Source: Gemmatimonadota bacterium
Lineage (GTDB): Bacteria > Gemmatimonadota > Gemmatimonadetes > Gemmatimonadales > Gemmatimonadaceae
Reading direction: 5' to 3'
Length of the DNA: 64,000 nt
Assembly (NCBI GenBank): GCA_023249305.1
Contig: JAHFCU010000008.1
Span: 1 to 64,000 of the forward strand
The translations under genes and the position numbers were made by a program. Below, one piece after another: positions 7,373 to 52,790 of the stretch. Under the pieces are notes generated by a model. That model did not search any database. It saw only the letters and a program-made list of their open reading frames with translations, and was not told the origin of the DNA. Position 1 is the first letter of the stretch. Each line of letters begins with the position of its first letter.

Positions 7373-7386
7373 CGATACCGCGGCGG

Positions 7387-7415
7387 TTGCGGCCCCCTCG
7401 CGGCGCCGATAGCTT
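7387..7415 (+). promoter_or_regulatory. Promoter TTGCGG-N17-TAGCTT, apparently leaderless
   Basis: -10 box ends 6 nt before ATG at 7422. Confidence 0.5.
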
Positions 7416-7421
7416 CGCCGC

Positions 7422-7649
7422 ATGCCAACTCCCCCACGCAAGCTGCGCAAGCAGTACGTCAACGCCGAGTATCCCAAGCTCGTGCTGCGGTTCGAGGACG
7501 GCCACGAGATTCGCATCGTCAAGGGCACCGGCAAGACCTTCGACTGCTGGTCCGGCGAGTCCATCAAGCTGCTGGCCGTCATCGATCCCGAGGAGCGCGA
7601 ACGGACGCACGTCGGCACGAAGAAGGCCGATGAGTTCGATGATGCCTGA
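7422..7649 (+). CDS. Small conserved-looking protein (75 aa)
   Basis: Complete ORF just after promoter-like sequence; ordered composition. Confidence 0.6.
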   Translation: MPTPPRKLRKQYVNAEYPKLVLRFEDGHEIRIVKGTGKTFDCWSGESIKLLAVIDPEERERTHVGTKKADEFDDA

Positions 7650-16058: not shown

Positions 16059-17441
16059 CTAGGGAGCAGGTGGCGGGGCCGGCGGCGCGGCCGCCGGGGC
16101 GCGCGGCGGCGCTCCCGTGGAGGCGACCGTGGTGAGTGAACGGTGGCCGTCGGCGCTGACCGAGCGCACCGCCGCCCACCCGTCGTCAAGTTGCTCGTCG
16201 AGCAGGTAACTGTTCACAGTGCCTGCGTCGTATACCTTCGTCCACGTTGGTGAAGTCGTAGCCCGGAACAGCACTTCGTAACGTGCCGCGCCGGGTGCCG
16301 ACTTCCAGCTCACCGTCCACTTCTGCCCGCCCGAGGCGCGGTCGCGGCGCGCGACAACGCTGTCCACCGGCGGCGGGGCAGATCCAAGCGATGCAACCGT
16401 CGCGAGGTTGAGCCGCGTGACACCGGCGACATACGGGAAGTTGACCCCCGTGAGGTCGTCGGTGGGCAGATGCTGCCGCTTGGTGTCCTCGAGTCGCTCG
16501 GTGAATCGAAGCGCCGGATCCCCAAGCCGATGGAACGGTGAGTGGTCGCCGCCGCGGCCGATGCGGTCGAGGCGGAAGGTGGGCCGCACCTCGAGGCGCG
16601 GCGTGTAGAGCGCACCGATGCCCCACACGTAACGCGACAGCTCGCCGCTGCGCGATGGCACGGAATCCACGGCGTACGTTCGCACGCTCGTCGAATCCAC
16701 GCGGCCGTCGTCGGCCATGACGTTGCCGATGATGTCATCGGTGAAGGCCGCGACGACGGTCTTCTGCTCATCGTGCAGCCGCCGTGCGAGTCCGGTGGCG
16801 CCAAGCAGGCCCTGCTCTTCCGCGGCGACCACTGCGAAGACGATCGTCGCGTCGAAGCCCTTGGGGAACCGTTTCGACATGACGCGCGCCAGCTCGACCA
16901 CGGCCGACGCCCCTGATCCGTCGTCGTCGGCGCCCGGCGCGTCGCTCGTGGCGTCAGCCGCATCGGTGGAGCAGATGCACGAGTCGTAGTGCCCGCTGAT
17001 CACCACGACGCGCGACGTGTCGCGCCCCGGCAGCCACGCAAGGACGTTCACCACGCGCGCCATCGGGCGGTCGCGGAAGCGCGCGATCTGCACGTCGTGC
17101 GGATCGTACTCAACGCGCAGGCATCCACCGCAGTCGCGGCTATAGGCTCGCAGTTCGCGATACAGGAACCGGCGTGCCGCGCCAATGCCGCGCGCATCGG
17201 ACGCCGTGTCGCTCAGCGTGTGCCGGGTACCGAACGCCACCAGCGTGCTGTCGGTGACGCGGATGCGCGCCGGCGACACATCGGCGAGCGCCGCCGCGAT
17301 GCGCGCGTCGCGCGCGAGCCCCATCGCCACGTCCGGCGCGGGGGCCAACGGAGCCGCAGCGCGCGCCGTCGCGGCCGGGCGGCGCTGGGCCAGCGCACTC
17401 GAGGCGGCCAGCAGGGCGGGGAGCAGGTGAAGAAGGCGCAT
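16059..17441 (-). CDS. M28 family metallopeptidase, secreted
   Basis: SGHYDS, GADDDGSGAS, AAEEQGLLGA; signal peptide AASSALA|QRRP. Confidence 0.9.
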   Translation of the reverse strand: MRLLHLLPALLAASSALAQRRPAATARAAAPLAPAPDVAMGLARDARIAAALADVSPARIRVTDSTLVAFGTRHTLSDTASDARGIGAARRFLYRELRAYSRDCGGCLRVEYDPHDVQIARFRDRPMARVVNVLAWLPGRDTSRVVVISGHYDSCICSTDAADATSDAPGADDDGSGASAVVELARVMSKRFPKGFDATIVFAVVAAEEQGLLGATGLARRLHDEQKTVVAAFTDDIIGNVMADDGRVDSTSVRTYAVDSVPSRSGELSRYVWGIGALYTPRLEVRPTFRLDRIGRGGDHSPFHRLGDPALRFTERLEDTKRQHLPTDDLTGVNFPYVAGVTRLNLATVASLGSAPPPVDSVVARRDRASGGQKWTVSWKSAPGAARYEVLFRATTSPTWTKVYDAGTVNSYLLDEQLDDGWAAVRSVSADGHRSLTTVASTGAPPRAPAAAPPAPPPAP

Positions 17442-17450
17442 GGGCGTTTC

Positions 17451-17597
17451 CACAGAGTACAACGGAAGGGAACGGAGAACAACAGAGTACCAGAGCTTAC
17501 GACAGAGTACGACGCAGGGGCGAACCCCGTTGGCCCGCCCCCCTGTCGTTGACTGTTGTGCTCTGTTGTTCTCTGTTGTTCTCTGTCGTGCTCTGCC
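17451..17597. repeat. Inverted decamer array (family A, copy 2) with inner hairpin
   Basis: Left TACAACGGAA GGGAACGGAG AACAACAGAG TACCAGAGCT TACGACAGAG TACGACGCAG; right (rc) CACGACAGAG AACAACAGAG AACAACAGAG CACAACAGTC AACGACAGGG; inner GGGGCG...CGCCCC. Confidence 0.85.
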
Positions 17598-18158: not shown

Positions 18159-18686
18159 ATGGAGCGCGACACCCTCGCCACGCTGCCGAACGCCATTTCG
18201 CTCTCCCGCCTGTTCCTGGCGGCGCTCTTTCCGGCCGTCCATGATCACGACGTCCGACTGCTCATCCTCGCCGCGGTCGGCCTGACCGACTTTCTCGATG
18301 GCTGGCTGGCCCGCCGCCGGCACCAGTTCAGCCGAATGGGCGCGCTCATTGACCCCTTCGCCGATCGCATCTTCATTCTGGTAGCCATTTGCACGCTCCT
18401 GCTTGAGGGCGATGTGACCACCGTGCAGTACTTCGTATTCATCCTGCGCGACATCGCCACGGCGGCCGCCTTCGTTGTGGCCAAGAGCGTCGCCTCGCTC
18501 CGCTCGGCAACCTTCAAGGCGCGGTTCTCGGGCAAGCTCGCCACCGTCCTGCAGCTCGTCGCGTTGCCGGCCATCGTCATTGATGCACGGGCGACCGCGT
18601 GGGCCGTTAGCGTTGTTGGCGCGGCGGCTGTCGTCTCCATCGCCGATTACTCCATCGCTCTGTGGCGCGCGCGGGAGCGCGCCTAA
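18159..18686 (+). CDS. CDP-alcohol phosphatidyltransferase
   Basis: DFLDGWLARRRHQFSRMGALIDPFADR matches DG-x2-AR-x8-G-x3-D-x3-D. Confidence 0.93.
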   Translation: MERDTLATLPNAISLSRLFLAALFPAVHDHDVRLLILAAVGLTDFLDGWLARRRHQFSRMGALIDPFADRIFILVAICTLLLEGDVTTVQYFVFILRDIATAAAFVVAKSVASLRSATFKARFSGKLATVLQLVALPAIVIDARATAWAVSVVGAAAVVSIADYSIALWRARERA

Positions 18687-18687
18687 A

Positions 18688-19179
18688 GTGCGCACGCCCG
18701 GCCTGCGGGGCCTGACTCTCACAATCCTGCTTGGCGCGGCGGAATCGCTCCCCGCGCAATCGTTCACGTTCCGGCCGTTCATGCAGGCCGAGTTGCGCGC
18801 TGAAGTCAGTGTGGCGCACCGTGCGGCGGCGATTGCGATGGCAGGCGCGAACGTTCCGCTCGGCTATTACGTCCGCGCCGGCTTCGCTGCCGGGCTCGGC
18901 GTGGCTGACATGCCTGACGGCGCGGCCCTCTCGACACGCGCTGATGCCGCCCTCCGATTCCTGCTCGACCCGTTCGCCGACCATGCGTGGGGACCGTACG
19001 CCGGCGGCGGTCTCACGGTGCGGCGCGACGGCGACGCGCGCGCGCGCGCCGGCGTGTTGTTCATCGTCGGCGTCGAAGGGCGTCGCTCCGGTCGCTGGAC
19101 GCCGGCCGTCGAAGCGGCGCTCGGTGAAGGTGCGCGCCTCGCGGTCGTGCTCAGGAGGTCGCGCGCGAACGGCCGCTGA
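18688..19179 (+). CDS. Secreted/outer-membrane hypothetical protein
   Basis: GTG start; signal peptide ILLGAAESLPA|QSFTF; beta-barrel-like composition. Confidence 0.6.
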   Translation: MRTPGLRGLTLTILLGAAESLPAQSFTFRPFMQAELRAEVSVAHRAAAIAMAGANVPLGYYVRAGFAAGLGVADMPDGAALSTRADAALRFLLDPFADHAWGPYAGGGLTVRRDGDARARAGVLFIVGVEGRRSGRWTPAVEAALGEGARLAVVLRRSRANGR

Positions 19180-36500: not shown

Positions 36501-36670
36501 AAACGCTTGTCCCCGCCGAGAGCGGCAGGCGCGGCGGCGATGATGTGAAAGCTGCGAACACGCGGTCGGACAGGTTTCGCGTCGTGTTGCGTGGCAGGGT
36601 GCCTCCTCGATACGGCCCTTTATAGATGCGTTCCGGCGGTCCTCCCAACCCCTTCTCGAGAACCTTCAAC

Positions 36671-39600
36671 ATGAAGACCCGCTCGCTGATTCGTGCAGTG
36701 GCAATACTTGCAGCAGCCCTCGCGCCAATCGCGTCGTTGCAAGCGCAGGGCATGACGACCGGCTCCCTCACCGGAACGGTCACGGATGAAGCGGGCGCTC
36801 CGCTCGAGGGCGCGCAGGTGCAGGTGCGCAATGCGCTGACCGGCTACAATGCCGGCACCGTGACGCGCGCCAATGGCCTCTATCGCCTCAATGGCCTCGA
36901 GCCGAACAACGCCTACCGGATCGTCGTCCGCCGCATCGGCTACTCGCCGGTCGCGCGCGAGGCGATCACGATCGCGCTCGGCGAAGCGCGCCGCGAGGAC
37001 TTCAAGCTCTCGCAGGCGGCGACCACCCTCAGCGGCGTGACCATCACGGCCACGTCCTCCAACGCGGTCATCACGCCGTCGAAGGCGGGCACCACGGCGG
37101 CCATCTCGGACTCCGCGCTGCGCCGGCTGCCGACGATCAACCGCAACTTCACGGACTTCGTCTCCCTGGTGCCGCAGATCTCGACGACCACCGGCTACCT
37201 CTCCGGCGGCGGCGTCAACCTCCGTCAGAACGCGATTCAGATTGACGGCGCGGCGTCCAGCGACCTCTTCGGCCTGGGTACGACCGGCCAGCCGGGTGCA
37301 TCGGCGAACGCCAAGTCGATTCCGCTCGACGCCGTCAAGGAGTACCAGGTCATGCTGTCGCCGTTCGACGTGCGCCACGGCAGCTTCGGCGGCGTGCTCA
37401 TCAACGCGGTGACGCGAAGCGGCACGAACGACTACCACGGCAGCTTGTACGGAGACGGCCGCAGCCAGAACATGACGCGCAAGGCGCCCGTCAACAATCC
37501 GTTCAAGACGCGCCACGGCAGCGTGTCCATCGGCGGTCCGATCATCAAGGACAAGCTGTTCTTCTTCTTCAGCGGCGAGCAGCAGATCCTGAACAACCCG
37601 GCGACCGGCTCGTACATCGGCGCGTCGGACCAGTACATCTCGCTGGCGTCCATCGAGGCCGTGAAGCTGGCCGCGCAGAAGTACGGGCTGGCCGACGCCG
37701 GTTCGGGCGAGGCGCTCCCGCGGACGAACCCGAACCTGAACTACTTCGTCCGGCTCGACGCGAATCTGCCCTGGAACACCCGCTTGGTGCTCCGCCACAA
37801 CTTCGCCTCGGCCGACTACACGTCGTTCAGCAGGAGCTTCGCCACGTCCTCGTCGCCGAACTTCAACCTGACGTCGAACAAGTACGCGCTCAGCAACACG
37901 AACAAGAGCTCGGTGATCGAGCTGCTCACCAACATGCCGCGCGGTTCGTACAACGAGTTTCTGGCGAACGTCTCGACGATCAAAGACTTCCGCACGGTGC
38001 CAGTGAAGTTCCCGCAGGTGACGGTGCAGGGTGTCGCCCGCACCGACGTTCCGACGCAGACGACGAACGTCGTCTTCGGCACCGAAGCGTCGTCGCAGGG
38101 CAACTCGCTCGACCAGAAGGTCGTCGAGCTGACGGACAACTTCACTATTCCGCTCGGCTCGCACTCCATCACGGCGGGCGCCAAGATGACCCGCTACAGC
38201 TGGGTCAATCTCTTCGCCCAGAACTCGATGGGCACGTGGACATTCGCCACGCTCGATGACTTCACGAACGGCAAGACCAAGAGCTACGTGGCCAGCGCGC
38301 CGGCGCCGACCGATCCGTACAAGGGTCTCGCGACGGTCAAGACGTTCAACTACACCGCGTACATCGAAGACAAGTGGCAGGTGACGTCGCGCATGCTGCT
38401 GACGCTTGGCGTTCGCTACGACAAGCCGACGTTCGACAACGTGCCGCCGCTGAACCAGGAAGTGCTGACGGACTACGGCCGCGCGACAACCAGCGTGCCG
38501 CACCTGGCGCAGATCTCGCCGCGCTTTGGCTTCAACTGGGACGTGACCGGCGACCAGCGGAACCAGTTGCGTGGCGGCGTCGGCGCGTTCAGCGGTCCGC
38601 CGCCGTACGTGTACCTCTCGAACGCGTTCGGCAACTCGGGCCTCAGCGGCTTCACGGCGCTGTCGTGCACGGGCGCGGCGATCACCAATTCGACGACCTC
38701 ATCGCTCTTGCCGCCCGCCTTCAGCTCCGCGGCCGCGGCCAGCCCGCCGACGTCCTGCATCGCGGGCACGCGTCCGGACGGCACGGTGGCGCCGGCAGCG
38801 ACGATCTCAGGTCCGTCATCCGGCGCGTCGGTGAACACCATTGATCCGACGTTCAAGATGCCCAAGTACCTCAAGGCGACGGTCGGCTTTGATCACCGCA
38901 TGAAGAACGGCATGATCGCGACCATCGAAGGCCTGTGGACGAGCTCGATCAACAACGCGTTCTACCGGAACCTGGCGTTGGGAGCAAGCCCGGTCGCGAA
39001 GGACGCGCACGGCCGCCAGCTCTACGGCATCCTCACGGCGTCGGGCGCCACTGCGACGACCACGGGGCCGCGCACCGTGGTGCTCGACCTCACGAATGCC
39101 AAAGGCGACTACACCTGGAGCGTCACCGCTCAGCTGCAGAAGGCCTTCAGCAAGAACTTCGACGGGTCCATCGCCTACACGCGCCAGCAGTCGTTCGACG
39201 TGGTGGCGGTTACCAGCTCCACCGCCGGTTCGAACTATCGGTACCAGCGTTCCATCAGCGGCCGACTCGACGACAAGACGGTCACGCGCTCGAAGTACGA
39301 CCAGCCGCACCGCTTCGTCGCCACGGGGTCGTGGCGTTCGTCGTGGGGCATGGACGTGGCACTCACGTACACCGGCAACTCCGGCGCGCCGTACGACTAT
39401 ATCTATGGAACGAACGGCGGCACGACGGGCGACTTGAACGGCGACGGCCAGACGCAGAACGACCTGATTTACGTGCCGAAGAACGCCGCCGATCCGACGG
39501 AGATCCTGTTCACCGGCTACAACAGTACGAATGCGACGACGAAGGCAGCATCCGATGCGTCGGCGGCGGCGTTCGAGACGTTCATCAAGAGCATCCCGTG

Positions 39601-40009
39601 CCTGAACGAGGCGCGTGGGACGATCCTCAAGCGGAACGCGTGCCGCAATCCGTTCGCGCACGAGTGGGACCTGTCGATCGGCCAGAACCTCGGCAAGCTC
39701 GGCCTGTCCGACGCGCTGCACGCCCCGGCGCTGAACAACCTGCTCGTCCGCTGGGACGTCATCAACCTCGGCAACTTCATCAAGAAGAGTTGGGGCTGGC
39801 AGAACTTCTCGAGCCAGAGTAGCACCTGCGGCCAGATCTGCAGCGCCACCGTGGCGATCGTGCACACGGGCAACGCCCTGCCGACCGGCACGACCAACAG
39901 CCCGAATGCCATCCCGATCGTGAACTTCAGCCCGACGTACACGGCGTGGGACACGAACAACCTCTCCTCCAACTACCGGATGCAGCTGTCGTTCCGGTAT
40001 AGCTTCTAG
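36671..40009 (+). CDS. TonB-dependent outer-membrane receptor, Oar-like with N-terminal carboxypeptidase-regulatory-like domain
   Basis: Signal peptide PIASLQA|QGMT; GTVTDEAGAPLEGAQVQVRN; barrel ends with F (FRYSF). Confidence 0.93.
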   Translation: MKTRSLIRAVAILAAALAPIASLQAQGMTTGSLTGTVTDEAGAPLEGAQVQVRNALTGYNAGTVTRANGLYRLNGLEPNNAYRIVVRRIGYSPVAREAITIALGEARREDFKLSQAATTLSGVTITATSSNAVITPSKAGTTAAISDSALRRLPTINRNFTDFVSLVPQISTTTGYLSGGGVNLRQNAIQIDGAASSDLFGLGTTGQPGASANAKSIPLDAVKEYQVMLSPFDVRHGSFGGVLINAVTRSGTNDYHGSLYGDGRSQNMTRKAPVNNPFKTRHGSVSIGGPIIKDKLFFFFSGEQQILNNPATGSYIGASDQYISLASIEAVKLAAQKYGLADAGSGEALPRTNPNLNYFVRLDANLPWNTRLVLRHNFASADYTSFSRSFATSSSPNFNLTSNKYALSNTNKSSVIELLTNMPRGSYNEFLANVSTIKDFRTVPVKFPQVTVQGVARTDVPTQTTNVVFGTEASSQGNSLDQKVVELTDNFTIPLGSHSITAGAKMTRYSWVNLFAQNSMGTWTFATLDDFTNGKTKSYVASAPAPTDPYKGLATVKTFNYTAYIEDKWQVTSRMLLTLGVRYDKPTFDNVPPLNQEVLTDYGRATTSVPHLAQISPRFGFNWDVTGDQRNQLRGGVGAFSGPPPYVYLSNAFGNSGLSGFTALSCTGAAITNSTTSSLLPPAFSSAAAASPPTSCIAGTRPDGTVAPAATISGPSSGASVNTIDPTFKMPKYLKATVGFDHRMKNGMIATIEGLWTSSINNAFYRNLALGASPVAKDAHGRQLYGILTASGATATTTGPRTVVLDLTNAKGDYTWSVTAQLQKAFSKNFDGSIAYTRQQSFDVVAVTSSTAGSNYRYQRSISGRLDDKTVTRSKYDQPHRFVATGSWRSSWGMDVALTYTGNSGAPYDYIYGTNGGTTGDLNGDGQTQNDLIYVPKNAADPTEILFTGYNSTNATTKAASDASAAAFETFIKSIPCLNEARGTILKRNACRNPFAHEWDLSIGQNLGKLGLSDALHAPALNNLLVRWDVINLGNFIKKSWGWQNFSSQSSTCGQICSATVAIVHTGNALPTGTTNSPNAIPIVNFSPTYTAWDTNNLSSNYRMQLSFRYSF

Positions 40010-40092: not shown

Positions 40093-41178
40093 CTAGGTGC
40101 GCACTCTCGCCAGCAGCAACAGGCCCAGCGAGCCAAAAACGATTCCCGGAAGCCACGCCGCAAGGTTCGGCGGCACGAGCCCCTTCGATCCGATGGCCTG
40201 CGTGAGTTGCACGAGCATGAGGAAGACGACCGTCGTGACGAGGCTGATGCCGGCGCCGAACGCGGTGCCGCCGCGCTGCGTGCTCGTCGCCAGCGGCGCG
40301 CCAAACAGCATGATGATGAGGCACGTCGCGGGAATCGCGATCTTGAGCATGCGCCCCACCTTGAGCGCCCCCACGTCGCTCCCCGACCGCTCGAGCGCGT
40401 CAATGAACGTCCCGAGCTCAGCGAAGGTCATCTCCTCCGGCACTTTCGAGCTGGCCATCAGCGCCTTGGGATCCTCCGTCATCCGGCGGTCGCGCAGCGA
40501 GTCGAACGCGATACTGATGCTCATCGCGTCGCTGGGCAAGATGTGCATCACGCCGGCCTGCAGCATCCACTGCTTCCGCCGCAGGTCATACTTGCCGGAC
40601 CGTGCGCTCACGAAGTAGGTCGGGTACGTCGCGTCCTTTCCCTTGCGCTCCACCACCACCTGGTTGAGCGTGCGCTGTTCGACGTCGGCCCCCGCAATCG
40701 TGTACACCCGGCCGCCCTCGGCGGCGTACGTGAAGTTGAACCGCGAGGACCGGTTGCTGAACTGCCGTTCCTTGAGGAGCTCGACGCGCCGCGCGTTCGT
40801 GTACGGCGACACCGCGCCGATGCCCAGTCCCGCCACCATCGCGAGCAGGGCGCCGAAGGCCATCGGCATGATGAACCGGTAGAAGCTGATCCCGCTCGCC
40901 TTGGCGGCCGTGATCTCCGAGTGGCGCGTGAAACTGCCTACCGAGAAGACCGTGGCGAACAGCACCGACGCCGGGAGGACGAGGAACATCGTGTCCGGCA
41001 CGCCATACAGGTAGGCGAGCGCGATGCTCTGCGGTGACAGGTTGCGGTTCAAGTACTTGTCGAGCTTTTCCGTGAGGTCGAGGACGATGACCAGCACCGG
41101 AAAACCCAGCGCCGTGCCGGCGAAGATCTTCAGCCACTCGGCGAAGACGTAGCGATCCAGCGGCTTGAGCATCCGCAT
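40093..41178 (-). CDS. lptG: LptF/LptG family permease (LptG position)
   Basis: LDRYVFAEWLKIFAGTALGFPVLVIVLDLTEKLDKY; PASVLFATVFSVGSFTRHSEITAAKASGISFYR. Confidence 0.85.
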   Translation of the reverse strand: MRMLKPLDRYVFAEWLKIFAGTALGFPVLVIVLDLTEKLDKYLNRNLSPQSIALAYLYGVPDTMFLVLPASVLFATVFSVGSFTRHSEITAAKASGISFYRFIMPMAFGALLAMVAGLGIGAVSPYTNARRVELLKERQFSNRSSRFNFTYAAEGGRVYTIAGADVEQRTLNQVVVERKGKDATYPTYFVSARSGKYDLRRKQWMLQAGVMHILPSDAMSISIAFDSLRDRRMTEDPKALMASSKVPEEMTFAELGTFIDALERSGSDVGALKVGRMLKIAIPATCLIIMLFGAPLATSTQRGGTAFGAGISLVTTVVFLMLVQLTQAIGSKGLVPPNLAAWLPGIVFGSLGLLLLARVRT

Positions 41179-42725
41179 CAGCGCCGCCGCCGCACGAGTC
41201 TTAGCACCCGTCGCCGCGCCCGGTATAGAAGTTCGGTCGTTTCACTGCCGCGGTTCGTCGTCCCCTCGCGGCCAAGGCGCACGGTTAGCGCGAGCCCGAT
41301 GCTGCCGAGGATGAAGTTCGGTGCCCACATCCCCCAGAACGGCGTCAGGAAATCGCGGTCGGCCATCGTCTCGCCGACGATCAGTCCCACGTAGTAGAGC
41401 CCGAAGACGGCGAGCGACACGCCGATCGTCATGCCGACGCCGCCGCGCGGAAAGCGCAGCGCGATGGGCGCGCCGAGCAGGACGAACACGAAGCAGGCGA
41501 CGGCGATGGCGAACTTCTTCTCGATCTCCACCGAGTGGCTGTCCACGATGTTCGCCGCATTCAGGAACTCGAGCTTGGTGCTCTCGGCGATCAGCGTGCG
41601 CGAGGCCGACGTTGCGGTGTCCCCTTCGGCGATGAGGCCTGCGGACGGCGGCAAGCTTGCGCGATGGCGCTGCGGTGGCACGGGATCCTGTGTAATGGGC
41701 GCGATGGCCGGCGGTCCACGCGGCGGCGCCGTCGGTCGCTTCGCTTTGTCCTGCGGTAGCATCGCCGCCGCGGCGGTCTTGATGTGGAGCGTCGCCATCA
41801 GCTTGCAATAGGCTGCGCCGAGTCCCGGGCGCAGCACGTCCGGCTGCATCGTGCGCGCCAGCTTGCGGTCGTACTTCCACATGATTTGCCACACGCTGTC
41901 GCGCGTGCGTCCCGCGCGGACCACGCGGTCGTTCAGCTCGCAAATGGTCATCTCGCGGTCGCTCTTGTAGAGGCTATCGGGAGACTCGCTTTCAAACTGG
42001 TTGCCGACGCCGCGCACCTTGATGAAGTCGGTGCGGAAGAAATTGCGCTGGAGCCGCGTCGGCTCCACCACCGAGACCTCCGTCATCGAGCCGCTGTGCA
42101 GCGTCAGCAGCAGGTCCACCTGATCGGACGACAGTTCCAGCAGCCCGCTGTCGGCGTGAATGGTGCGGCGCTTCTGCGGCAGTGAGAGATCGTAGATCGT
42201 GACTTCCCGCATCATGCTCGTCGCGCGGTCAATGCGTCCGGCGCGCAGGTACAGCCGGTTCGGCGACACCTCGTTGATGATCTGCTCCTTGAACGCAACC
42301 GTCGGCTTCTTGCGCGAGATGTCGGTGGTCAGCGTCGCGAGACGGTGGTTGGCGCGCGGCAGCACCTGGTCGTTGAACCAGACCATCAGGAGCGTGAAGC
42401 CGAGCGCGGCGACGAGCACTGGGGCGACCAGGCGGTGCATGGACACGCCGCTCGCCTTGTACGCCGTGATCTCGTTCTCCGACGCGAGCCGGCTGAAGGC
42501 GTGCAGCGTGGCCACGAGGATGGCCATCGGCAGCGTCATCGCGACCGTGAACGGAATCGAGAGCGCGAAGAACTCAATAATCGCCCGCGCCGGGAGCCCC
42601 TTGCCGACGAGGTCGCCGAACTTCTTGGCGATGTAGTTGAGCAGCAGCAGCGACGTGAGCGCGGAGAGCGCGAACACGAGCGGGCCGACGTGCTCCCTCA
42701 GGATGTACTTGGAGGTGATCTTCAA
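41178..42725 (-). CDS. lptF: LptF/LptG family permease (LptF position)
   Basis: ITSKYILREHVGPL; SRLASENEITAYKASGVSMHRLVAPVL; likely TTG start at 42725, upper ORF region overlaps the divergent promoter. Confidence 0.85.
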   Translation of the reverse strand: MKITSKYILREHVGPLVFALSALTSLLLLNYIAKKFGDLVGKGLPARAIIEFFALSIPFTVAMTLPMAILVATLHAFSRLASENEITAYKASGVSMHRLVAPVLVAALGFTLLMVWFNDQVLPRANHRLATLTTDISRKKPTVAFKEQIINEVSPNRLYLRAGRIDRATSMMREVTIYDLSLPQKRRTIHADSGLLELSSDQVDLLLTLHSGSMTEVSVVEPTRLQRNFFRTDFIKVRGVGNQFESESPDSLYKSDREMTICELNDRVVRAGRTRDSVWQIMWKYDRKLARTMQPDVLRPGLGAAYCKLMATLHIKTAAAAMLPQDKAKRPTAPPRGPPAIAPITQDPVPPQRHRASLPPSAGLIAEGDTATSASRTLIAESTKLEFLNAANIVDSHSVEIEKKFAIAVACFVFVLLGAPIALRFPRGGVGMTIGVSLAVFGLYYVGLIVGETMADRDFLTPFWGMWAPNFILGSIGLALTVRLGREGTTNRGSETTELLYRARRRVLRLVRRRR

Positions 42726-42776
42726 CGGATCGGCCCTGGGGCGTGGGAAGGGCAGAACTGCCGGTGACGCCGAGGG

Positions 42777-42804
42777 TTGTAGGGTGTCGGACCGTCCGTA
42801 TATT
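42777..42804 (+). promoter_or_regulatory. Promoter TTGTAG-N16-TATATT
   Basis: Between divergent lptF and sprA-like genes. Confidence 0.45.
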
Positions 42805-42834
42805 CCACTCGCCGACCGCTCAGAAGCAAGGTCT

Positions 42835-45800
42835 ATGGATGCGCGGCCCCCGCGACCCCCGCAGCCGTCGCGGTCCGTGGTGCTGCGTGTCACGTGGTGC
42901 CGTCCCTGCTACCCCGATCTGCCTCATTTGGTGCGCGCTCTCTGCTTCCTCGCCGCCTGCTCGATGGCGTTGCCGCTGGCGGCCCAGTCTCAGGGTGCAC
43001 CGCCGGCGCGTGGCGAGCCGTCCGTTCTGACGCCGTTCCATTTGACGTTCGTGCGCCCGCCCGCGCTTGCCCCGGGGGGCAGCCTCTCGCGCGAGCGGCT
43101 GACGCCCGAGGAGGTGGGTCGTCGCGCGGCCGCAGCCGCGCATGTGCGCGCGCAGCGCACGATTGAGGCGCAGTGGCGCACGTCCATCCAAGCCGCGCTG
43201 CGCGCCGCCCCGGGCCTCCCCGGCGGCGCCGCGGCCGCGCCGCGGATCATCGCGGCGAAAGACTCGTCGCTGCGAGCGCAGGCCGCCGACCTCTTCGGCC
43301 AGTACGCCGACCTCGGCCTCGCCCTCAATGGACGGCTCGAGAGCCGCGTGAACCGCACGAAGAACGAGCGTTGCATCAGCAGCCAGTTCTTCAGCGTCGG
43401 CTGCAAGGGGACGTTCCAACCGATCTTCGATTTCCAGTTCGATGTGCGCACGGGCGGCGTCGTCGCCGACCGCGTCCACCTCAACGTGGACTACGACAGC
43501 AAGCGCGAGTTCGACGCGTCGAACAACATCCAGGTCTACTACCAGGGCAAGAGCGACGAGCTGATTCAGAAGCTCGAGGTCGGCAACGTCACGTTCCAGC
43601 CCCCCGCGAGCCGCTTCATCACCGGTGGCATCCCCAGCGGCAACTACGGCCTGCAGGCCATCGGCCAGATCGGGCCGATGCGATTCCGGACCATCGTGGC
43701 GCAGCAGAAGGGCAATGTCAGCAAGGACCGCGTATTCACGGTCGGCGATCGCACCGTGCAGTCGGTGGACCGCGAGATCGAGGACTATCAGGTCGAGCCG
43801 CGGCGCTTCTTCTTCACCGTGGACCCACACCGCTTCACCGACTTCCCGAACATTGACCTGCTCAACGGGACGCAGCTGCAGCGGCTCGCCGCGTCGCTTC
43901 CAGATTCGGTGCGGCCGTCGCGCATCTACCTCTACCGCCTGCTCATCGGCGGCCAGCCGCCCAACCCGAACGGCCCGCAGTTCAAGCTGATCGGCGATCC
44001 CGCGTCGCGGCGCGGCCAGGTATACGAGCTGCTGCGCGAGAACGTCGACTTCTACACCGACCCGTCGCTGCTCTGGGTCGCACTCGTGCGCCCGCTCAAC
44101 CTCAACAATGAGCGCCTCGTCGTGGCGTACACGGTGCGCCTCAACGGACGCGACACGACCATCGCCGCCACCGGCGGCACGCCCGACTTCGAGTACACCG
44201 ACGGCGACCAGTACGCGAACCTGCTGTGGGATCCGACGGTGCGTCCGACCGACGCGGCGTTCGAGCGCGAGATCCGTGCGATCTACCGCGTCGGTGGCGA
44301 GGACGTGCGTCGCAACACGGTGACCGCGCGCATCGTAACCGGCGCGTCGGGCGACCAGGAAAAGCCGGCCGCCGGCACGGCCGATACGTGGCTGCAGCTC
44401 TTCGGGCTCGCGCAGTCGGGGAACAGCGCGACCTTCGACATCGACAACCGCCTCTTCCCGCGTACGGGCGATCCGAACTACACCGTGGGCGGCGCGGCCG
44501 GCACGAAGATCCTGCGCGATCACTTCCTCGTCTTCCCGTCGCTGCGGCCGTTCTCGCGCACAGGCCTCGCGCAGCCCGCCGGCAACCCGTCGAGCGAGGC
44601 GATCTACACGACGCCGGGCGAGTACCTCTACTCCATCCAGCATCCGCAGTCCACGTACCGCATCCGCCTGCGGTATGACGCAGAAGGAGGCGGCGACGCG
44701 GGCACGCTCGCGCTCGGCGCCGTGCAGGTGCGGCCGAATTCGGAGCGCCTGACGCTTGACGGCCGCGTGCTGCAGCGCGACCTCGACTACAAGGTGGATT
44801 ACGACCTCGGCCGCGTCACGTTCCTGCGCCCCGACACGCTCTTCCCCAGTGCGCGGCAGGTGTCGGTGCGCTACGAGGAGAATCCGCTCTTCGCCGCCGC
44901 GCCGAAGAGCATCCTCGGCTTCGCGTCGCAGTTCCCGCTCGACGTGGGCGAGATCAACGTGATGGCCATCGCGCAGAGCCAGCGGACCACGTTCACGCGC
45001 CCGCCGCTCGGCTACGAACCGCAGTCGTCGCTCATCGCCGGGATCAGTGGCACCTTCGACTTCGACGCCGACCCGCTGACCCGCGCCCTTCAGCGTCTCC
45101 CATTCGTGCACACCACGGCGCCGTCGCGCGTGCACCTCGACGCCGAGGTGGCGACGAGCCGCCCGCAGGCGAACAGTGCGGGGCAGGCGTACCTCGAGAG
45201 CTTCGAGGGGGAGGGTGGAACACTCGTAAACCTCTCGGACCCGGCGTGGCTGAACAGTAGCCAGCCCGCGCTCGGCAAGCTCCTGCCGTCGCGGATCGGT
45301 GGCGCATCGTCGCTTGACCTCTCGCGCGCCGCCACGATCGCGTGGCAGAACAACGGCCTCAGCGCCGCGGGCCAAACCGTCACGTTCACGCTTCAGCAGA
45401 TTGACCCGCTGGTGAACATCATCGGCTCGGGACTGCAGCAGCCCGAGCAGATGCTCTGGCTCACGCTCTATCCGCTCAGCGTGGGCGGCGCGTACAACGA
45501 CGCGACGAAGAAGTACCAGTGGCAGGTGAACAACACCACCCTCGGGCGGCGCTGGCGGTCGGTCCGCACCGTGCTCAACGCGTCAGGCACCGACCTGTCG
45601 CGCATCGAGAACATCCAATTCTGGACGCTTATTGACACCGCAGCCGCACACCGTCAGCGCAATCCCACGCTGGTTTTCGATTTCGGCGACATGTCCGAGA
45701 ACGCCGTCGCCCTTGCTCCCACACGCCTCGTTGTCTCACGCAACGGCGCGACGACCGACACGCTCTACTCGGGCCGCACCATCGTCGGGCTCGACTCGCT

Positions 45801-48800
45801 GCACTCCGAACGCGACGCGTTCTCGCGCTCATTCAACCAGGAGCGAGACGACAAAGGTCTCCCAGGTGACGTGGTGCCGAGCCTTCCATTTACGTCGCCA
45901 GATTCTTCGGGAGTGCTGAGCAACTACGCCATGTGCCAGCGAGGTGACGTGAAGCTCAACCGCCTCGGCGACGCAAAGACCAATTGCACGGTGCGCAACG
46001 GCCGGCTCGACGAGCACGACATTGACCTCGACAACACGCTCAACTTCGTCTCGTCGCAGCGGGAGAGCGAGCGGCTGCTGCGCTACGTCGTGGATCTGGC
46101 GGACTCAAAGGCCTACACGCGCGTCGGCAACTGCGAAGTCACTCAGGTGGACAGCTCTGGCGGCGCAGCCGAGAGCAACACGCTGTGCTGGGTGCTCTTC
46201 CGGCTGCCGTTCAACGCACCCTTCGACACCATCGCCGGCGGGCCCGCCATCCGCCGCGTCCGCGCCCTGCGACTGACGATGATCAGCGGCGCCGGCGCGC
46301 GCGACGACGCATTCACGCAGCTTCCCCTCGCGCAGTTCCGCCTGACCGGCGCGTCGTGGCTCAAGCGGGCGGACCGCACCCTCACCGGCATCGCCGGCGA
46401 CCGCGCCGGACTCGGCGCCGTGCAGGCCTCGACCATCGGCACGATGGACCGCGACTCGACGAGCGGCCTGATCTACGACTCGCCGCCGGGCGTCAGCGAC
46501 GCGCCCGATCAGATCATCACCGGTCTCGAAAACCAGCGCGTCCAGATCAACGAGCGCTCGATGCGCGTCACGGCGCAGCAGCTTGGGCCGTTCCAGCGCG
46601 CCGAGGCGTACCAGCGATTCGCCGAGGGGAGCCGGAACTTCATGCAGTACCGCGAACTGCGCGTATGGGCGCGCGGGCGCGGCAACGGCTGGGGGCAGGA
46701 CGGTGAGGTGAACTTCTTCGTCCGGCTCGGGCGCGACGCCGACAACTTCTATCTCTACCGCACGCCGGTGAGCGCTGGCACAGGGCCGGCAGCCTGGCTC
46801 CCCGAGGTGCGCGTGGACTTCGATAAGTTCTTCGCCCTGCGCGCGCAGTTGCAGAACGCGTTCCTGCAGAACAGTCCTGACTCGCTCGCGTGCCACGGCG
46901 CGGACTCCGTACTGATCGCACGCAGCGGACTCCCGACGGGCGTGAGCGTGCACCGTTATGCGGCCTGCGCCGACGGGTACATGGTGTACACGGTGGACCC
47001 GAACATCAGCGCGCCGAACCTCGCCGCCGTGCAGGACCTCGCGGTCGGCATGATACGCGTGGACTCGGGGGGCAAGAGCCCGTCACGCATCATGCCGGGC
47101 GACACGCTCGAGCTGTGGGTGGATGACATGCGCCTCACGCGCGTGGACAACACGCCGGGTTACGCGGCGCAAGTGGGGCTCAACGTGACGGCGGGCGACA
47201 TCGGCACCTTCCGCGCCGGATTCAGCCACCGCGACGCCAACTTCCGCCAGCTCAACGAGACGCCGTCGTACGTGTCGGACAACCAGTTCGACATCGGCAC
47301 GTCGCTGCGTCTCGACAAGCTGCTTCCGGCGGGGCTCGGCTACGCCATCCCGCTCACGGTCAATCACTCAGCCGGGGCGAACAATCCGCTGTACGTGTCG
47401 CGCTCCGACCTGCGTGGCGACGGTATCCGCGGACTGCGCACGCCGCGCAGCGGCGCGACGAACGTGGGCATGTCGCTGCGCCGCACCGCGCCCCTGCGCG
47501 AAGGATGGCTGGCCGCGATCGTGAACAACCTCGGCGCCTCCGCCAACTACGGCGCGGCCAGCGCGCGCAGCGAATACCAGGACGGCAAGAGCAGCAACTT
47601 CAACGCGGCCGTGGACTACAACCTTGCCTCGCAGGCCAAGCTGCGACCGATGCCGCAGTGGGTGGATAACGTCGTTGGCGTGTTCCCGCTCTGGCTGCAG
47701 AACACCGAGTGGGTGCAAGCGCTGCGCAACGCGCAGCTGCGCCTCAACCCGTCGAGTGTGCGCCTGAGCAGTGCAGTCGCGCGCGCCACGGATCGCCGCA
47801 TGGCGTTCCTCAAACCCGCCGAATCGCTCGCCGACACCGGCCGCCTCGTCACCGGGCAGACGCATGTGTGGCGCAACGCCGCCGGTGTGGAGCTCCAGCC
47901 ATTCGACGCGCTCCGCGCGCGCTGGGATTTCACGTCGCTGCGCGACCTGCGGCAGTACGGCGATTCCTCGCCGACCGCGATCGTCGCCACGAGCGAGCGT
48001 AGCCGCCTGTTCGGGATGGACGTCGGCCTCGAGCGCGAGCGGCAGATGAACGCCGCGATCGGCTTTACGCCGACCATCGCGTTCTGGATGCGTCCGCGGA
48101 TTGACCTCACCAGCGCATACTCGATGCAGCGCGACCCCAACTCGCGCACCCTCGTGCGCGACGCCGACACCACCGGCGGCTACCATCTGCCGCGTCGCGT
48201 CAACAACACGCAGACCATCGCGCTTGGCGCCAGCATTGACCTGCCGTCGGCACTCCGCGTCTACTTCCACGACTCGCTGGTCACACCAATGCTGGTGCAG
48301 GCGCTGCAACCGCTCGACATCCAGGCGAGCCGGTCGCTCGTTTCGGCGTTCGACGGGGCGCCGTTCACGCCGGGGCTTGGATACCAGCTCGGATGGGGCG
48401 GCATTGACCACTTCCGCGCGCAGAACGGGCTCAATGCGACGAGCGCGGGGAGCAATGCGCAGGTTTCGCTCAGCACGGGGATCCGCCTGCCGCTCGGCAT
48501 GGCGCTTGCCACGCGCATGCAGCGCGTCAACTCGCGCAACTGGACGCGACGCTTCGACAACACGCAGACCGTGATTGACGGCGAGCAGCTCACGCTCCCC
48601 GACCTCACGCTTCGCCTCACGCTGCGGCCGCAGCTGGTCAGCCGGTTCATCACGAGCATCGGCGGCAGCGTGCGCTACTTGAACACGCGGCAGTCGAGCG
48701 TCGTGCCCAGCGAGATCGCCGGCGCCGCCGCCGATGTGCGCGTGAGCCGCGTGACGAGCTACCCCGTGAATGGCAGCGTCACGTGGAACGTCGGCACGGG

Positions 48801-49206
48801 CCTCTTGACGTCGTTCGGGCTGGGCGGCACCCACCGCATTGACTCCGTGCCCGGCAGCATCACCGAGTCGCGCTCGCGCGACCTCAACGCCGACCTGTCG
48901 CGCGCCGTGAAGCTGCCGTCCCGGTGGAAACTCAAGAACGATCTCCGCACGCGGTTGAGCTACCAGGCGAGCAGCGCGCAGTCGTGGGTGCAGAACCAGA
49001 ACGCCTCCGGCAAGCGGAGCCGCCTCGCCGACAACGGACGCCAGGCGATCAACGTGAACGCCGATGCCGACGTCGCCGAGAACCTGACGTTCTCGCTCAC
49101 TGGGGCGCGCATCGTCACCTTTGATAACAACCTGAACCGGCGCTTCTCGCAGATCGTCTTCACGGCGGTGTTGCAGGTGTCGTTCTTTGCGGGAGAGATC
49201 AGATGA
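42835..49206 (+). CDS. sprA-like: SprA-like giant cell-surface/outer-membrane protein
   Basis: IQVYYQGKSDELIQKLEVGNVTFQPPASRFITGGIPSGNYGLQAIGQIGPMRFRTIVAQQKG resembles SprA family; about 2,120 aa; signal peptide LPLAA|QSQG. Confidence 0.88.
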   Translation: MDARPPRPPQPSRSVVLRVTWCRPCYPDLPHLVRALCFLAACSMALPLAAQSQGAPPARGEPSVLTPFHLTFVRPPALAPGGSLSRERLTPEEVGRRAAAAAHVRAQRTIEAQWRTSIQAALRAAPGLPGGAAAAPRIIAAKDSSLRAQAADLFGQYADLGLALNGRLESRVNRTKNERCISSQFFSVGCKGTFQPIFDFQFDVRTGGVVADRVHLNVDYDSKREFDASNNIQVYYQGKSDELIQKLEVGNVTFQPPASRFITGGIPSGNYGLQAIGQIGPMRFRTIVAQQKGNVSKDRVFTVGDRTVQSVDREIEDYQVEPRRFFFTVDPHRFTDFPNIDLLNGTQLQRLAASLPDSVRPSRIYLYRLLIGGQPPNPNGPQFKLIGDPASRRGQVYELLRENVDFYTDPSLLWVALVRPLNLNNERLVVAYTVRLNGRDTTIAATGGTPDFEYTDGDQYANLLWDPTVRPTDAAFEREIRAIYRVGGEDVRRNTVTARIVTGASGDQEKPAAGTADTWLQLFGLAQSGNSATFDIDNRLFPRTGDPNYTVGGAAGTKILRDHFLVFPSLRPFSRTGLAQPAGNPSSEAIYTTPGEYLYSIQHPQSTYRIRLRYDAEGGGDAGTLALGAVQVRPNSERLTLDGRVLQRDLDYKVDYDLGRVTFLRPDTLFPSARQVSVRYEENPLFAAAPKSILGFASQFPLDVGEINVMAIAQSQRTTFTRPPLGYEPQSSLIAGISGTFDFDADPLTRALQRLPFVHTTAPSRVHLDAEVATSRPQANSAGQAYLESFEGEGGTLVNLSDPAWLNSSQPALGKLLPSRIGGASSLDLSRAATIAWQNNGLSAAGQTVTFTLQQIDPLVNIIGSGLQQPEQMLWLTLYPLSVGGAYNDATKKYQWQVNNTTLGRRWRSVRTVLNASGTDLSRIENIQFWTLIDTAAAHRQRNPTLVFDFGDMSENAVALAPTRLVVSRNGATTDTLYSGRTIVGLDSLHSERDAFSRSFNQERDDKGLPGDVVPSLPFTSPDSSGVLSNYAMCQRGDVKLNRLGDAKTNCTVRNGRLDEHDIDLDNTLNFVSSQRESERLLRYVVDLADSKAYTRVGNCEVTQVDSSGGAAESNTLCWVLFRLPFNAPFDTIAGGPAIRRVRALRLTMISGAGARDDAFTQLPLAQFRLTGASWLKRADRTLTGIAGDRAGLGAVQASTIGTMDRDSTSGLIYDSPPGVSDAPDQIITGLENQRVQINERSMRVTAQQLGPFQRAEAYQRFAEGSRNFMQYRELRVWARGRGNGWGQDGEVNFFVRLGRDADNFYLYRTPVSAGTGPAAWLPEVRVDFDKFFALRAQLQNAFLQNSPDSLACHGADSVLIARSGLPTGVSVHRYAACADGYMVYTVDPNISAPNLAAVQDLAVGMIRVDSGGKSPSRIMPGDTLELWVDDMRLTRVDNTPGYAAQVGLNVTAGDIGTFRAGFSHRDANFRQLNETPSYVSDNQFDIGTSLRLDKLLPAGLGYAIPLTVNHSAGANNPLYVSRSDLRGDGIRGLRTPRSGATNVGMSLRRTAPLREGWLAAIVNNLGASANYGAASARSEYQDGKSSNFNAAVDYNLASQAKLRPMPQWVDNVVGVFPLWLQNTEWVQALRNAQLRLNPSSVRLSSAVARATDRRMAFLKPAESLADTGRLVTGQTHVWRNAAGVELQPFDALRARWDFTSLRDLRQYGDSSPTAIVATSERSRLFGMDVGLERERQMNAAIGFTPTIAFWMRPRIDLTSAYSMQRDPNSRTLVRDADTTGGYHLPRRVNNTQTIALGASIDLPSALRVYFHDSLVTPMLVQALQPLDIQASRSLVSAFDGAPFTPGLGYQLGWGGIDHFRAQNGLNATSAGSNAQVSLSTGIRLPLGMALATRMQRVNSRNWTRRFDNTQTVIDGEQLTLPDLTLRLTLRPQLVSRFITSIGGSVRYLNTRQSSVVPSEIAGAAADVRVSRVTSYPVNGSVTWNVGTGLLTSFGLGGTHRIDSVPGSITESRSRDLNADLSRAVKLPSRWKLKNDLRTRLSYQASSAQSWVQNQNASGKRSRLADNGRQAINVNADADVAENLTFSLTGARIVTFDNNLNRRFSQIVFTAVLQVSFFAGEIR

Positions 49207-50210
49207 TGGACGGCAGACGACGGATGGGAGATGGGAGATCGGAGATGGCAGATCGCCGGGAGCTCAAACGAGGGCTCAGTGGCGTGGCTCTCGCGCTCGC
49301 CCTCAGCGCAATGCTCACCGCCTGCGCACGGAAGCCCGACGCGCCCCCCGTGCGTCCCATCGTCACCACCGAATTCGATGGCGACGCGGCGCTCAAGTAT
49401 GCGGCGGCGCAGGTGGCATTTGGACCGCGTGTGCCAGGATCCGGCGCGCACCGCAAGGCCGGCGACTGGATCGTCGCGCAGATGAAGGCGCGTGGCGCCA
49501 CGGTCGTGGAGCAGACGTGGATGCACACCGCGCAGAGCGCTCGGAAGCTCCCGCTGCGCAACATCCTCGCGCGTTTCAATCCGCAGGCACGAAACCGCGT
49601 GCTCTATCTCACGCACTGGGACACACGCCCGACCGCCGACATGGAACCTGATCCGGCCGACCAACTCCTGCCGATCGACGGAGCCAACGACGGCGCATCG
49701 GGCGTCGGGCTGTTCGTGGCGCTCGCGGACGCACTGCAGAAGAAGCCGTCGGCCTTCGGCGTGGACCTACTCTTCGTGGACGGCGAGGACTACGGCGAGT
49801 TCGGGCCGCCGTTGGTAGACGTGCTACTCGGCTCGACCTACTTCGCGTCGCACCTGCCGGAGTCTGGCTACAAGCCCGTCTTCGGCATCCTCTTCGATAT
49901 GATCGGCGACGCCGACCTGCGCATTCCACAGGAAATCAACTCGGTGCAAATGGCGCCGGACGTTGTACAGCGCGTCTGGTCGAAGGCGGAAGAAATGGGC
50001 CGCGGCTCGGTGTTCGTCACGCGGGCTGAGCAGCAGATCACGGACGATCACATCCCGCTGCTCAGCGTCGGGCTCAAGGTGATTGACGTGATTGACCTCG
50101 ACTACGGACCGGGAAACTCGTACCACCATTCCCGCCAGGACACGATGGACAAGATCTCGGCGGCGTCGCTGAAGATCGTCGGCGATGTGGCGCTGGCGTT
50201 GCTGCGGTAG
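49203..50210 (+). CDS. M28-fold glutaminyl-peptide cyclotransferase-like lipoprotein
   Basis: Lipobox LTAC; LYLTHWDTRP, GANDGASGVG, LFVDGEDYG, TDDHIPLLSVG (QC-type DDHIPFL motif); true start may be 49245. Confidence 0.85.
   Translation: MMDGRRRMGDGRSEMADRRELKRGLSGVALALALSAMLTACARKPDAPPVRPIVTTEFDGDAALKYAAAQVAFGPRVPGSGAHRKAGDWIVAQMKARGATVVEQTWMHTAQSARKLPLRNILARFNPQARNRVLYLTHWDTRPTADMEPDPADQLLPIDGANDGASGVGLFVALADALQKKPSAFGVDLLFVDGEDYGEFGPPLVDVLLGSTYFASHLPESGYKPVFGILFDMIGDADLRIPQEINSVQMAPDVVQRVWSKAEEMGRGSVFVTRAEQQITDDHIPLLSVGLKVIDVIDLDYGPGNSYHHSRQDTMDKISAASLKIVGDVALALLR
49206..49257. repeat. Heptamer array (family B-like), GGGAGAT units
   Basis: ATGGGAG ATGGGAG ATCGGAG ATGGCAG ATCG overlapping start region of the next gene. 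Confidence 0.7.
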
Positions 50211-50291: not shown

Positions 50292-50855
50292 ATGCCGACG
50301 CCAGCTGAACGACAGGCGCTCCTCTTCTTTGCCGCTGTTGCCGCGCTGGGGGTTGGCGTGAACGCGTGGCGCGCGGCGCGCGGCGGCGAACACGTGCTGG
50401 CCGGATCGCCCAGCGATCTCGCGGCGCAAATCGCCCGCGTCGACTCGGCCGTCGCGAGTTCTCCGAGCCGTGAGGCCGGCCGCGCCGCGCTTCGCAAGCG
50501 CAACTCCGACAAGGCGGCCAAGCGGCGAAAGCCGGCGGTTGCAGCGCCGCTGCCGGCTCCGACGCAACTTACCGTCTACCCTCTACCGTCTACCGTCAGC
50601 CGTATCGATCTCGACCTCGCCCCCGCCGCCGCGATCGAGTCGCTGCCGCGGATTGGCCCTGCGCTCGCGGCGCGCATTGTCGCCAACCGCGACTCGTTCG
50701 GCGCGTTCGGGTCGCTCGAAGGACTGCAGCGCGTGCGAGGCATAGGTCCCGCCCTCACGAAGGGGTTGCGCGAACGCGTTGCCTTTTCCGGGATTCCTCG
50801 CGAGGGCGTCCCGACCGCAAAGAGCAAGGCAAGCCGGCGCCCTGCGGCGCCTTGA
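50292..50855 (+). CDS. ComEA-like helix-hairpin-helix protein
   Basis: IDLDLAPAAAIESLPRIGPALAARIVANRDSFGAFGSLEGLQRVRGIGPAL. Confidence 0.88.
   Translation: MPTPAERQALLFFAAVAALGVGVNAWRAARGGEHVLAGSPSDLAAQIARVDSAVASSPSREAGRAALRKRNSDKAAKRRKPAVAAPLPAPTQLTVYPLPSTVSRIDLDLAPAAAIESLPRIGPALAARIVANRDSFGAFGSLEGLQRVRGIGPALTKGLRERVAFSGIPREGVPTAKSKASRRPAAP
50570..50606. repeat. Heptamer array (family B) inside coding sequence
   Basis: ACCGTCT ACCCTCT ACCGTCT ACCGTCA GCCGTAT encodes LTVYPLPSTVSRI linker. Confidence 0.7.
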
Positions 50856-50960: not shown

Positions 50961-52790
50961 ATGGCCACTCCCGCCTCATCCGGCTCTGAACGCCTCGGTG
51001 ATCTCCTCCTCAAGGAGGGGCTCATCACGAAGGAGCAATTGGAGAAGGCGCTTGCCGAGCAGAAGCAGAGCGGCACGCGCGTCGGCTACAACCTCGTCAA
51101 GCTCGGCTTCGTCCCCGAACTCGAGATCACGAAGGTACTGGCGAGGCAGCACAAGATGCCGGCCGTGGACCTCTCGAAGTTCGAGGTGGATCCGAAGATC
51201 GTGAAGCTCATCCCCGCCGACGTCGCGGTGAAGCACCTCGTGCTGCCGCTCAAGCGCGACGGGCGCACGCTCACCGTCGCGATGGCCGACCCCACGAACA
51301 TGGGGGTCGTGGACGACCTCAAGTTCATCACGCGGTACGACATCTTCCCCGTGATCGCGGGCGAGTTCACACTCAAGAACGCGATCGAGAAGAACTACGA
51401 GTCAAGCGACGTCCAGATGGGAGCGCTCCTCGAGGAAATCGAGGGGCTTGACGCCGAAGCCGACGTCGAGGTCGTGGAGGACCAGGACGACGACGCGGCC
51501 GCCGGGCAGGCGCAGCTCGTTGACGACGCGCCCGTCGTGAAGCTACTCAACGCCATTCTCACCGACGCGGTGAAGCGGGGCGCCTCGGACATCCATTTCG
51601 AGTGCTTCGAGCACGAGCTGCGCGTGCGCTACCGCATTGACGGCGCGCTCATGGAGATCATGAAGCCGCCCAAGAAGATGCAGGCGGCGCTCATCTCGCG
51701 CTTCAAGATCATGTCGGCGCTCAACATCGCCGAGCGGCGCGTCCCGCAGGACGGGCGCATCAAGCTGAAGATGGGCAAGAAGGTCATTGACTACCGCGTC
51801 TCGACCTTGCCCACGATCTTTGGCGAAAAGGTCGTGCTCCGCATTCTCGACAAGGGCAACCTGACGCTCGACCTCGAGAAGTTTGGCATCGAGCCGCGTG
51901 CCGAGCGCGAGCTGATGGAGGCGGTGAGCAACCCGTACGGCATGGTGTTGGTGACGGGCCCGACGGGCTCGGGCAAGACGACCACGCTGTACTCGGCGCT
52001 GTCGAAGGTGAACAGCATCGACACGAACATCATGACGGCCGAAGACCCGGTGGAGTACAACATCTTCGGCATCAACCAGGTGCTCGTGCGCAACGAGATC
52101 GGGATGACCTTCGCCGCGGCGCTGAAGGCGTTCCTTCGGCAGGACCCGAACATCATCATGGTGGGCGAGATCCGCGACCTCGAGACGGGCGGCATCGCCA
52201 TCAAGGCCGCGCTCACCGGCCACCTCGTGCTCTCGACGCTGCACACGAACTCGGCGCCGGAAACGGTGACGCGCCTGCTCGACATGGGGCTCGAGCCGTT
52301 CAACGTCAGCTCGGCGCTCAACCTGATCCTCGCGCAGCGCCTCGTCCGCCGCATCTGCGGGCAATGCAAAGAGAAGTACATGATCACCGATGAGGAGCTC
52401 TCGACCGCCAAGATCACGCGGAATACGACCTACCGCGAGCTGCGTTTCACTGAAGAGGCGCTGCGCGACGCCGTATCACGCGCGTCCAAGGAAGCGGCGC
52501 CGCTTGTCGCGAACGTCACCCTCGACACCAAGATCGCCGACGTGCCGCTCTGGAAGGGGAAAGGCTGTGACGCCTGCGGTGGCAACGGCCTCAAGGGGCG
52601 CCAGGGACTGTACGAAGTGATGTTCATGACGCCGCGCCTGCGGCGCCTCATCCTGCAGAACGTCGGTGCCGCCGAGATCAAGGAAGGGGGCATCGAGGAC
52701 GGCATGCTCACGCTCCGCATGGACGGCTGGCTGAAGGCCCTGAAGGGCGTGGTCCCGCTCGAACAAGTGCTCCGCGAAACGAGCGCCTGA
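50961..52790 (+). CDS. pilB: Type IV pilus assembly / GspE-family ATPase
   Basis: GPTGSGKTTTLYSAL, AEDPVEYN, GEIRDLETG; CGQCKEKY...CDACGG zinc motif. Confidence 0.95.
   Translation: MATPASSGSERLGDLLLKEGLITKEQLEKALAEQKQSGTRVGYNLVKLGFVPELEITKVLARQHKMPAVDLSKFEVDPKIVKLIPADVAVKHLVLPLKRDGRTLTVAMADPTNMGVVDDLKFITRYDIFPVIAGEFTLKNAIEKNYESSDVQMGALLEEIEGLDAEADVEVVEDQDDDAAAGQAQLVDDAPVVKLLNAILTDAVKRGASDIHFECFEHELRVRYRIDGALMEIMKPPKKMQAALISRFKIMSALNIAERRVPQDGRIKLKMGKKVIDYRVSTLPTIFGEKVVLRILDKGNLTLDLEKFGIEPRAERELMEAVSNPYGMVLVTGPTGSGKTTTLYSALSKVNSIDTNIMTAEDPVEYNIFGINQVLVRNEIGMTFAAALKAFLRQDPNIIMVGEIRDLETGGIAIKAALTGHLVLSTLHTNSAPETVTRLLDMGLEPFNVSSALNLILAQRLVRRICGQCKEKYMITDEELSTAKITRNTTYRELRFTEEALRDAVSRASKEAAPLVANVTLDTKIADVPLWKGKGCDACGGNGLKGRQGLYEVMFMTPRLRRLILQNVGAAEIKEGGIEDGMLTLRMDGWLKALKGVVPLEQVLRETSA

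Follow-up and report, generated by a model that had tools for sequence, protein, structure and literature searches.

The exported proteins that begin with Gln in one stretch of Gemmatimonadota DNA, together with an sprA homologue followed by a glutaminyl cyclase (QC)-like gene, raise the question of whether this phylum runs the "Q-rule" of Bacteroidetes, and whether such a rule is tied to type IX secretion. Under the Q-rule, cleavage by signal peptidase I (SPI) exposes Gln at the first mature position (+1) and a lipoprotein QC cyclises it to pyroglutamate. The rule is said to occur 'exclusively in the Bacteroidetes' (Szczesniak 2023, PMC10653852), and Gemmatimonadota are unmentioned in the main text of PMC5837995 or PMC10653852. 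The DNA analysed here (the window; 64,000 nucleotides) comes from contig C62 of a Gemmatimonadota metagenome-assembled genome (MAG), G000 (2.5 Mb, 83 contigs, 78.6% complete), whose nearest named relatives are Gemmatimonadetes/Gemmatimonas MAGs. The initial annotation of the window proposed a Q-rule system, and this reading is supported by +1 Gln enrichment, both in the sampled part of the genome and throughout the main class of the phylum, and by the clustering of the window's QC with other QCs. Our sequence evidence supports an extension of the Q-rule, known in Bacteroidota, to a second phylum, Gemmatimonadota.

The M28-fold protein encoded next to sprA is, by sequence, tree, and fold, a type II QC and not an ordinary M28 aminopeptidase, and is presumed to be active. 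The QC-type motifs and lipobox claimed for it are all found (HWDTRP, DGEDYG, TDDHIPLL and LTA↓C). In the tree, a branch with support of 100/99 separates the window QC, its orthologues, and a Prevotella QC from Gemmatimonadota aminopeptidases. Its best relatives in the PDB are Bacteroidota QCs (3tc8, 6qql, 6qro, 3gux, and 4fuu; E 1e-51 to 1e-60), whereas a plain aminopeptidase reaches just 6e-6 in the same sequence ranking. An AlphaFold2 model (pLDDT 89) has BtQC, PgQC, and TfQC as its first fold matches, followed by Planctomycete, Acidobacterial, insect, tick, and human QCs. HWD(T/S)RP and DDHIP are preserved in nearly all QC members, while aminopeptidases from the same phylum carry HxDH and SDH. 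A lipobox is present in the window QC and almost all relatives read.

Residues expected of a QC active site are conserved. Across an alignment of 25 relatives, H138, D140, D163, E195, D232, D281-D282-H283, and H309 are invariant, and W139 and D196 are nearly so. The zinc-ligand and catalytic residues (D163, D196, H309; E195, D232, D282) are present and aligned with those of Bacteroidota QCs, the equivalences following PMC7948796 and human QC. Bacteroidota QCs use Asp as a zinc ligand instead of human Glu202, and the Glu-Asp pair of the window QC (E195-D196) resembles the PgAsp183 ligand (PMC7948796). Compared with PgQC and the Bacteroides thetaiotaomicron QC (6qql, 7d1d), the window QC shows 35-38% identity across the domain, a common fold, and a lipobox, which PgQC also carries (PMC5837995). 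It differs from Bacteroidota and animal QCs in having His-His (H308-H309) in place of Trp-His: the Trp preceding the zinc-ligand His (HsTrp329) is absent, being His308 in the window QC and His throughout the relatives read. This position lines the active site and is not a defining catalytic one.

Exported proteins of the window consistently place Gln after the predicted SPI site. The six cleavage contexts originally listed are each present as quoted, in an open frame, with Gln at +1 (Table 1). The weakest is ESLPA↓QSFT, whose c-region contains Glu. The frame given for the sprA homologue is the longest reading; judging by its signal peptide, translation would begin at a GTG near 42931. Every convincing SPI signal peptide found in the window has +1 Gln; the remaining hydrophobic N-termini resemble membrane anchors, multi-span proteins, or lipoproteins. 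Gln makes up 2.9% of residues, so six of six would arise by chance with a probability of ~6e-10, although the six were chosen by eye. The second M28 protein of the window, one of these six, is placed with aminopeptidases in the tree, on a long branch. Elsewhere (56553-58597), a BlaI-like repressor lies beside a BlaR1-like M56 protein in which a single chain combines a TonB C-terminal domain with a TonB-receptor plug domain.

Table 1. Features of the window in positional order. Arrows mark predicted cleavage sites; the +1 codon encodes the first residue after SPI cleavage.
Feature	Position	Strand	Cleavage context	+1 codon	Evidence and remarks
Small exported protein	4433..4774	-	AFALA↓QGAP	CAG at 4693	No Pfam match
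Beta-lactamase-family protein	7333..8544	+	ARAVA↓QNTT	CAG at 7723	PF13354, E 3e-52
M28 aminopeptidase-like protein, not QC	16059..17570	-	SSALA↓QRRP	CAG at 17387	PF04389; weak LapA match
Unknown-family protein	18475..19179	+	ESLPA↓QSFT	CAA at 18757	Weak signal peptide; no Pfam match
TonB-receptor-like outer-membrane protein	36626..40009	+	ASLQA↓QGMT	CAG at 36746	N-terminal PF13620; PF25183
Two lptG/lptF-like permease genes	40093..42893 (ORFs 40093-41178, 41178-42893)	-			Locus left border; named from sequence reading alone
SprA/Sov homologue (outer-membrane translocon family)	42637..49206	+	LPLAA↓QSQG	CAG at 42985	TIGR04189, 803 bits (cut-off 200)
Type II (M28-fold) QC, predicted lipoprotein	49203..50210	+	LTA↓C		PF04389; lipobox Cys is residue 41
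Helix-hairpin-helix (HHH; ComEA-like) protein	50292..50855	+			PF12836; right-hand neighbour of QC
PilB-type ATPase	50961..52790	+			TIGR02538, 696 bits (cut-off 676); locus right border; conserved neighbourhood

The +1 Gln bias extends well beyond the window. Enrichment holds in G000 and in the main class, as judged from a genome sample: ~367 kb of G000, counting the window, with 120-200 kb apiece from ten further genomes of the phylum. Prevotella served as the positive control and E. coli and Sinorhizobium meliloti (S. meliloti) pSymB as negative controls. Cleavage sites were called with a home-made predictor, so that the share of +1 Gln is not comparable with the published 71%; this raw share is also diluted by false signal peptides. 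When a single site was chosen blind to +1, many sites were misplaced in Ala-rich N-termini, and the resulting ~29-44% for G000 is a lower bound. Because single-site choice is unreliable in such N-termini, we adopted a site-free statistic together with a set of proteins chosen by homology. The statistic counts, among genes with an n- and h-region, those in which Gln follows at least one cleavage-type site, and compares the count with an expectation from local composition. A DNA pattern combining an NYN run, AXA, and CAR was dropped for excess noise in DNA of 67% GC.

By the site-free statistic, Gln follows a cleavage-type site in 24 of the 47 signal-peptide-like genes sampled in G000, where 6.5 ± 2.3 would be expected. 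The composition-matched expectation is surpassed in all sampled main-class genomes, including G130 (17/26; 4.2 expected), G075 (9/20; 2.0 expected), and G013 (11/34; 4.5 expected), as well as two genomes with a type I QC, G074 (20/33; 4.2 expected) and G058 (14/25; 4.5 expected). Prevotella likewise gives 15 of 40 against 5.5 expected, whereas neither E. coli (5/27; 4.0 expected) nor the GC-rich S. meliloti (2/21; 1.4 expected) shows enrichment. In the cleavage region of G000 proteins, an AXA-type motif precedes 73% of Gln but 14% of the remaining polar residues (OR 16, p 1e-10). The corresponding values for the type II QC group are 65% and 16% (OR 9, p 2e-20), and E. coli shows no significant effect.

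The homology-chosen set is the cleaner of the two. These proteins were picked by the PF13620 domain alone, which usually follows a signal peptide, and the signal peptide itself was ignored. An AXA-type site followed by Gln is found in 42 of 43, against 13 expected (18/19 in G000 and 24/24 across three other genomes); the proteins are paralogues and not fully independent, and the genome-wide sample concurs. The outlying class f9 (G007) has a weak bias: strict +1 Gln occurs in 2 of 18 and Ala is the commonest residue. A QC homologue is nevertheless present in this class (L180-L189), so that carrying a type II QC is not by itself a sign of a strong Q-rule.

QCs of two unrelated types are spread across the phylum. 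Of 151 genomes, 108 have a strong type II match and 47 a type I QC (PF05096); 14 genomes have both, 94 type II only, 33 type I only, and 10 neither, so that 141 carry at least one type. The type I enzyme, a beta-propeller QC of plants and bacteria, has an unrelated fold and is located elsewhere in the genome than type II. Several type I QCs are lipoprotein-like, with a lipobox. None was found in G000 itself, an incomplete genome. Type I is present in 33 of the 43 genomes without type II, compared with 14 of the 108 with it (p 9e-14 by genome, uncorrected for kinship); counted by genus, the complementarity has p 0.003. Type I QC probably does the job of type II in the Gemmatimonadota lineages that have lost the latter. 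Bacteroidota are likewise split between type I and type II QCs by clade (PMC5837995).

Ten genomes have neither QC type (G034, G096, G035, G089, G093, G120, G125, G127, G142, and G009; loci L277-L305). Chance loss from MAGs is an unlikely explanation, because two same-genus pairs lack both QCs. A type II profile search of these ten genomes returned weak matches only (best 61 bits), and their readable M28 proteins are aminopeptidase-like. In G034, G096, and G125, every exported PF13620 protein has Gln after the cleavage site. We tentatively raise the possibility, itself rather doubtful, that lineages such as g49 and g65 carry a third QC family or another N-terminal cap. If so, a single phylum would hold three or more unrelated enzymes that cyclise exported proteins.

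The locus itself is conserved in the order lptG-lptF / sprA - QC - HHH - pilB. As first described, the QC gene lies directly downstream of sprA, and the last codons of sprA overlap the QC start. Conservation of this adjacency is borne out among relatives: the two genes are adjacent and co-directional in all 55 cases where they share a contig (families f1, f2, f3, f4, and f8). They sit far apart in family f5, in both genomes where this is visible, and on different contigs in class f9. The lptG/lptF-like genes are conserved upstream of sprA or QC, and the HHH gene is conserved 3' of QC; in lineages that have lost QC, it follows sprA. Either gene can disappear from the block. Genus g4 (L043, L046, L050, and L051) reads lptF / sprA - HHH - pilB, from which type II QC is cleanly absent; a type I QC with a lipobox is encoded at another site in the genome. 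At seven loci (L024, L029, L063, L067, L068, L070, and L073), sprA alone is gone and lptF / QC - HHH - pilB remains.

We consider it very likely that main-class Gemmatimonadota run a Q-rule. Sec-exported proteins would be cut by SPI between an AXA-type motif and Gln, and a lipid-anchored, periplasm-facing QC (in the window, the type II enzyme) would turn the N-terminal Gln into pyroglutamate. The pyroglutamate would most likely shield exported proteins from aminopeptidases, a role proposed from P. gingivalis work (PMC10653852). It is barely conceivable that the bias instead arises artificially, from the GC- and Ala-rich composition of the N-termini and from choosing sites by eye. AXA-type sites are indeed plentiful in Ala-rich N-termini, and the initial six were selected by eye; however, every sampled main-class genome exceeds an expectation matched to its composition while GC-rich S. 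meliloti does not, Gln at +1 surpasses the remaining polar residues taken together, and the near-uniform PF13620 set was chosen by homology. A real bias might also be a mere site preference of SPI, with the exposed Gln left uncyclised or cyclised spontaneously and the QC otherwise employed, for instance as an aminopeptidase. The persistence of +1 Gln in G034, G096, and G125 is in line with this idea, as is the M28 fold, which is common to aminopeptidases. We regard it as unlikely, given that nearly all members of the family carry QC signatures rather than those of aminopeptidases, and that two unrelated QC folds substitute for one another. Mutual replacement of this kind would not be expected unless selection acts on cyclisation itself.

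The further proposal that SprA and QC form one type IX-like export system, with pyroglutamate marking SprA cargo, is very improbable. It draws on the same-strand adjacency in all 55 same-contig cases, and on weak matches to PorV and to C-terminal domains (CTDs) in some relatives. Against it, each gene has been lost without the other at the same locus, and this double dissociation led us to set a joint function aside; adjacency is also absent in f5 and f9. Furthermore, G130 (100% complete, one contig) has no SprA match yet keeps a strong Q-rule; therefore, the Q-rule does not need SprA. Work on Bacteroidota likewise judged cyclisation not to be tied to type IX secretion system (T9SS) targeting (Bochtler 2018, PMC5837995). 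The shared pyroglutamate and type IX-like system suggested by the initial annotation is thus unsupported, and the sprA-QC pairing is a conserved neighbourhood with no obligate joint machine.

The sprA gene of the window scores well above the family cut-off of the SprA/Sov translocon, and the rest of the T9SS is candidate only. A GldM profile, probing for the GldKLMN/PorKLMN motor, gave zero matches in 31 relatives, and zero in the controls too. CTD cargo and PorV have weak matches in some relatives and none in the incomplete G000. In three contigs of family f3 (G160:C59, G163:C309, and G043:C202), weak type IX sorting-domain and PorV-like matches adjoin. These side-by-side matches hint that Gemmatimonadota may have a pared-down export route made up of SprA, PorV, and CTD.

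The predicted Gemmatimonadota system resembles the Bacteroidetes Q-rule (PMC5837995; PMC10653852) in its +1 Gln after SPI cleavage of most exported proteins, its lipoprotein QC, the assortment of QC type by clade, and the independence of cyclisation from type IX secretion. Unlike in Bacteroidetes, the QC gene is flanked by sprA on one side and a pilB gene cluster on the other, no QC is recognisable in some lineages, and cyclisation is deduced from genomic data.

A Q-rule in Gemmatimonadota, where two unrelated cyclases stand in for one another as they do in Bacteroidota, would argue for N-terminal capping of envelope proteins as an older or a convergent strategy. The cyclase interchange argues that the target of selection is cyclisation and not a particular enzyme. 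Lineages with SprA and no type II QC, with QC and no SprA, or with neither QC provide natural experiments in which pyroglutamate would be separable from type IX secretion. The finding also enables correct annotation of an M28 'peptidase' and of signal-peptide cleavage sites in Gemmatimonadota.
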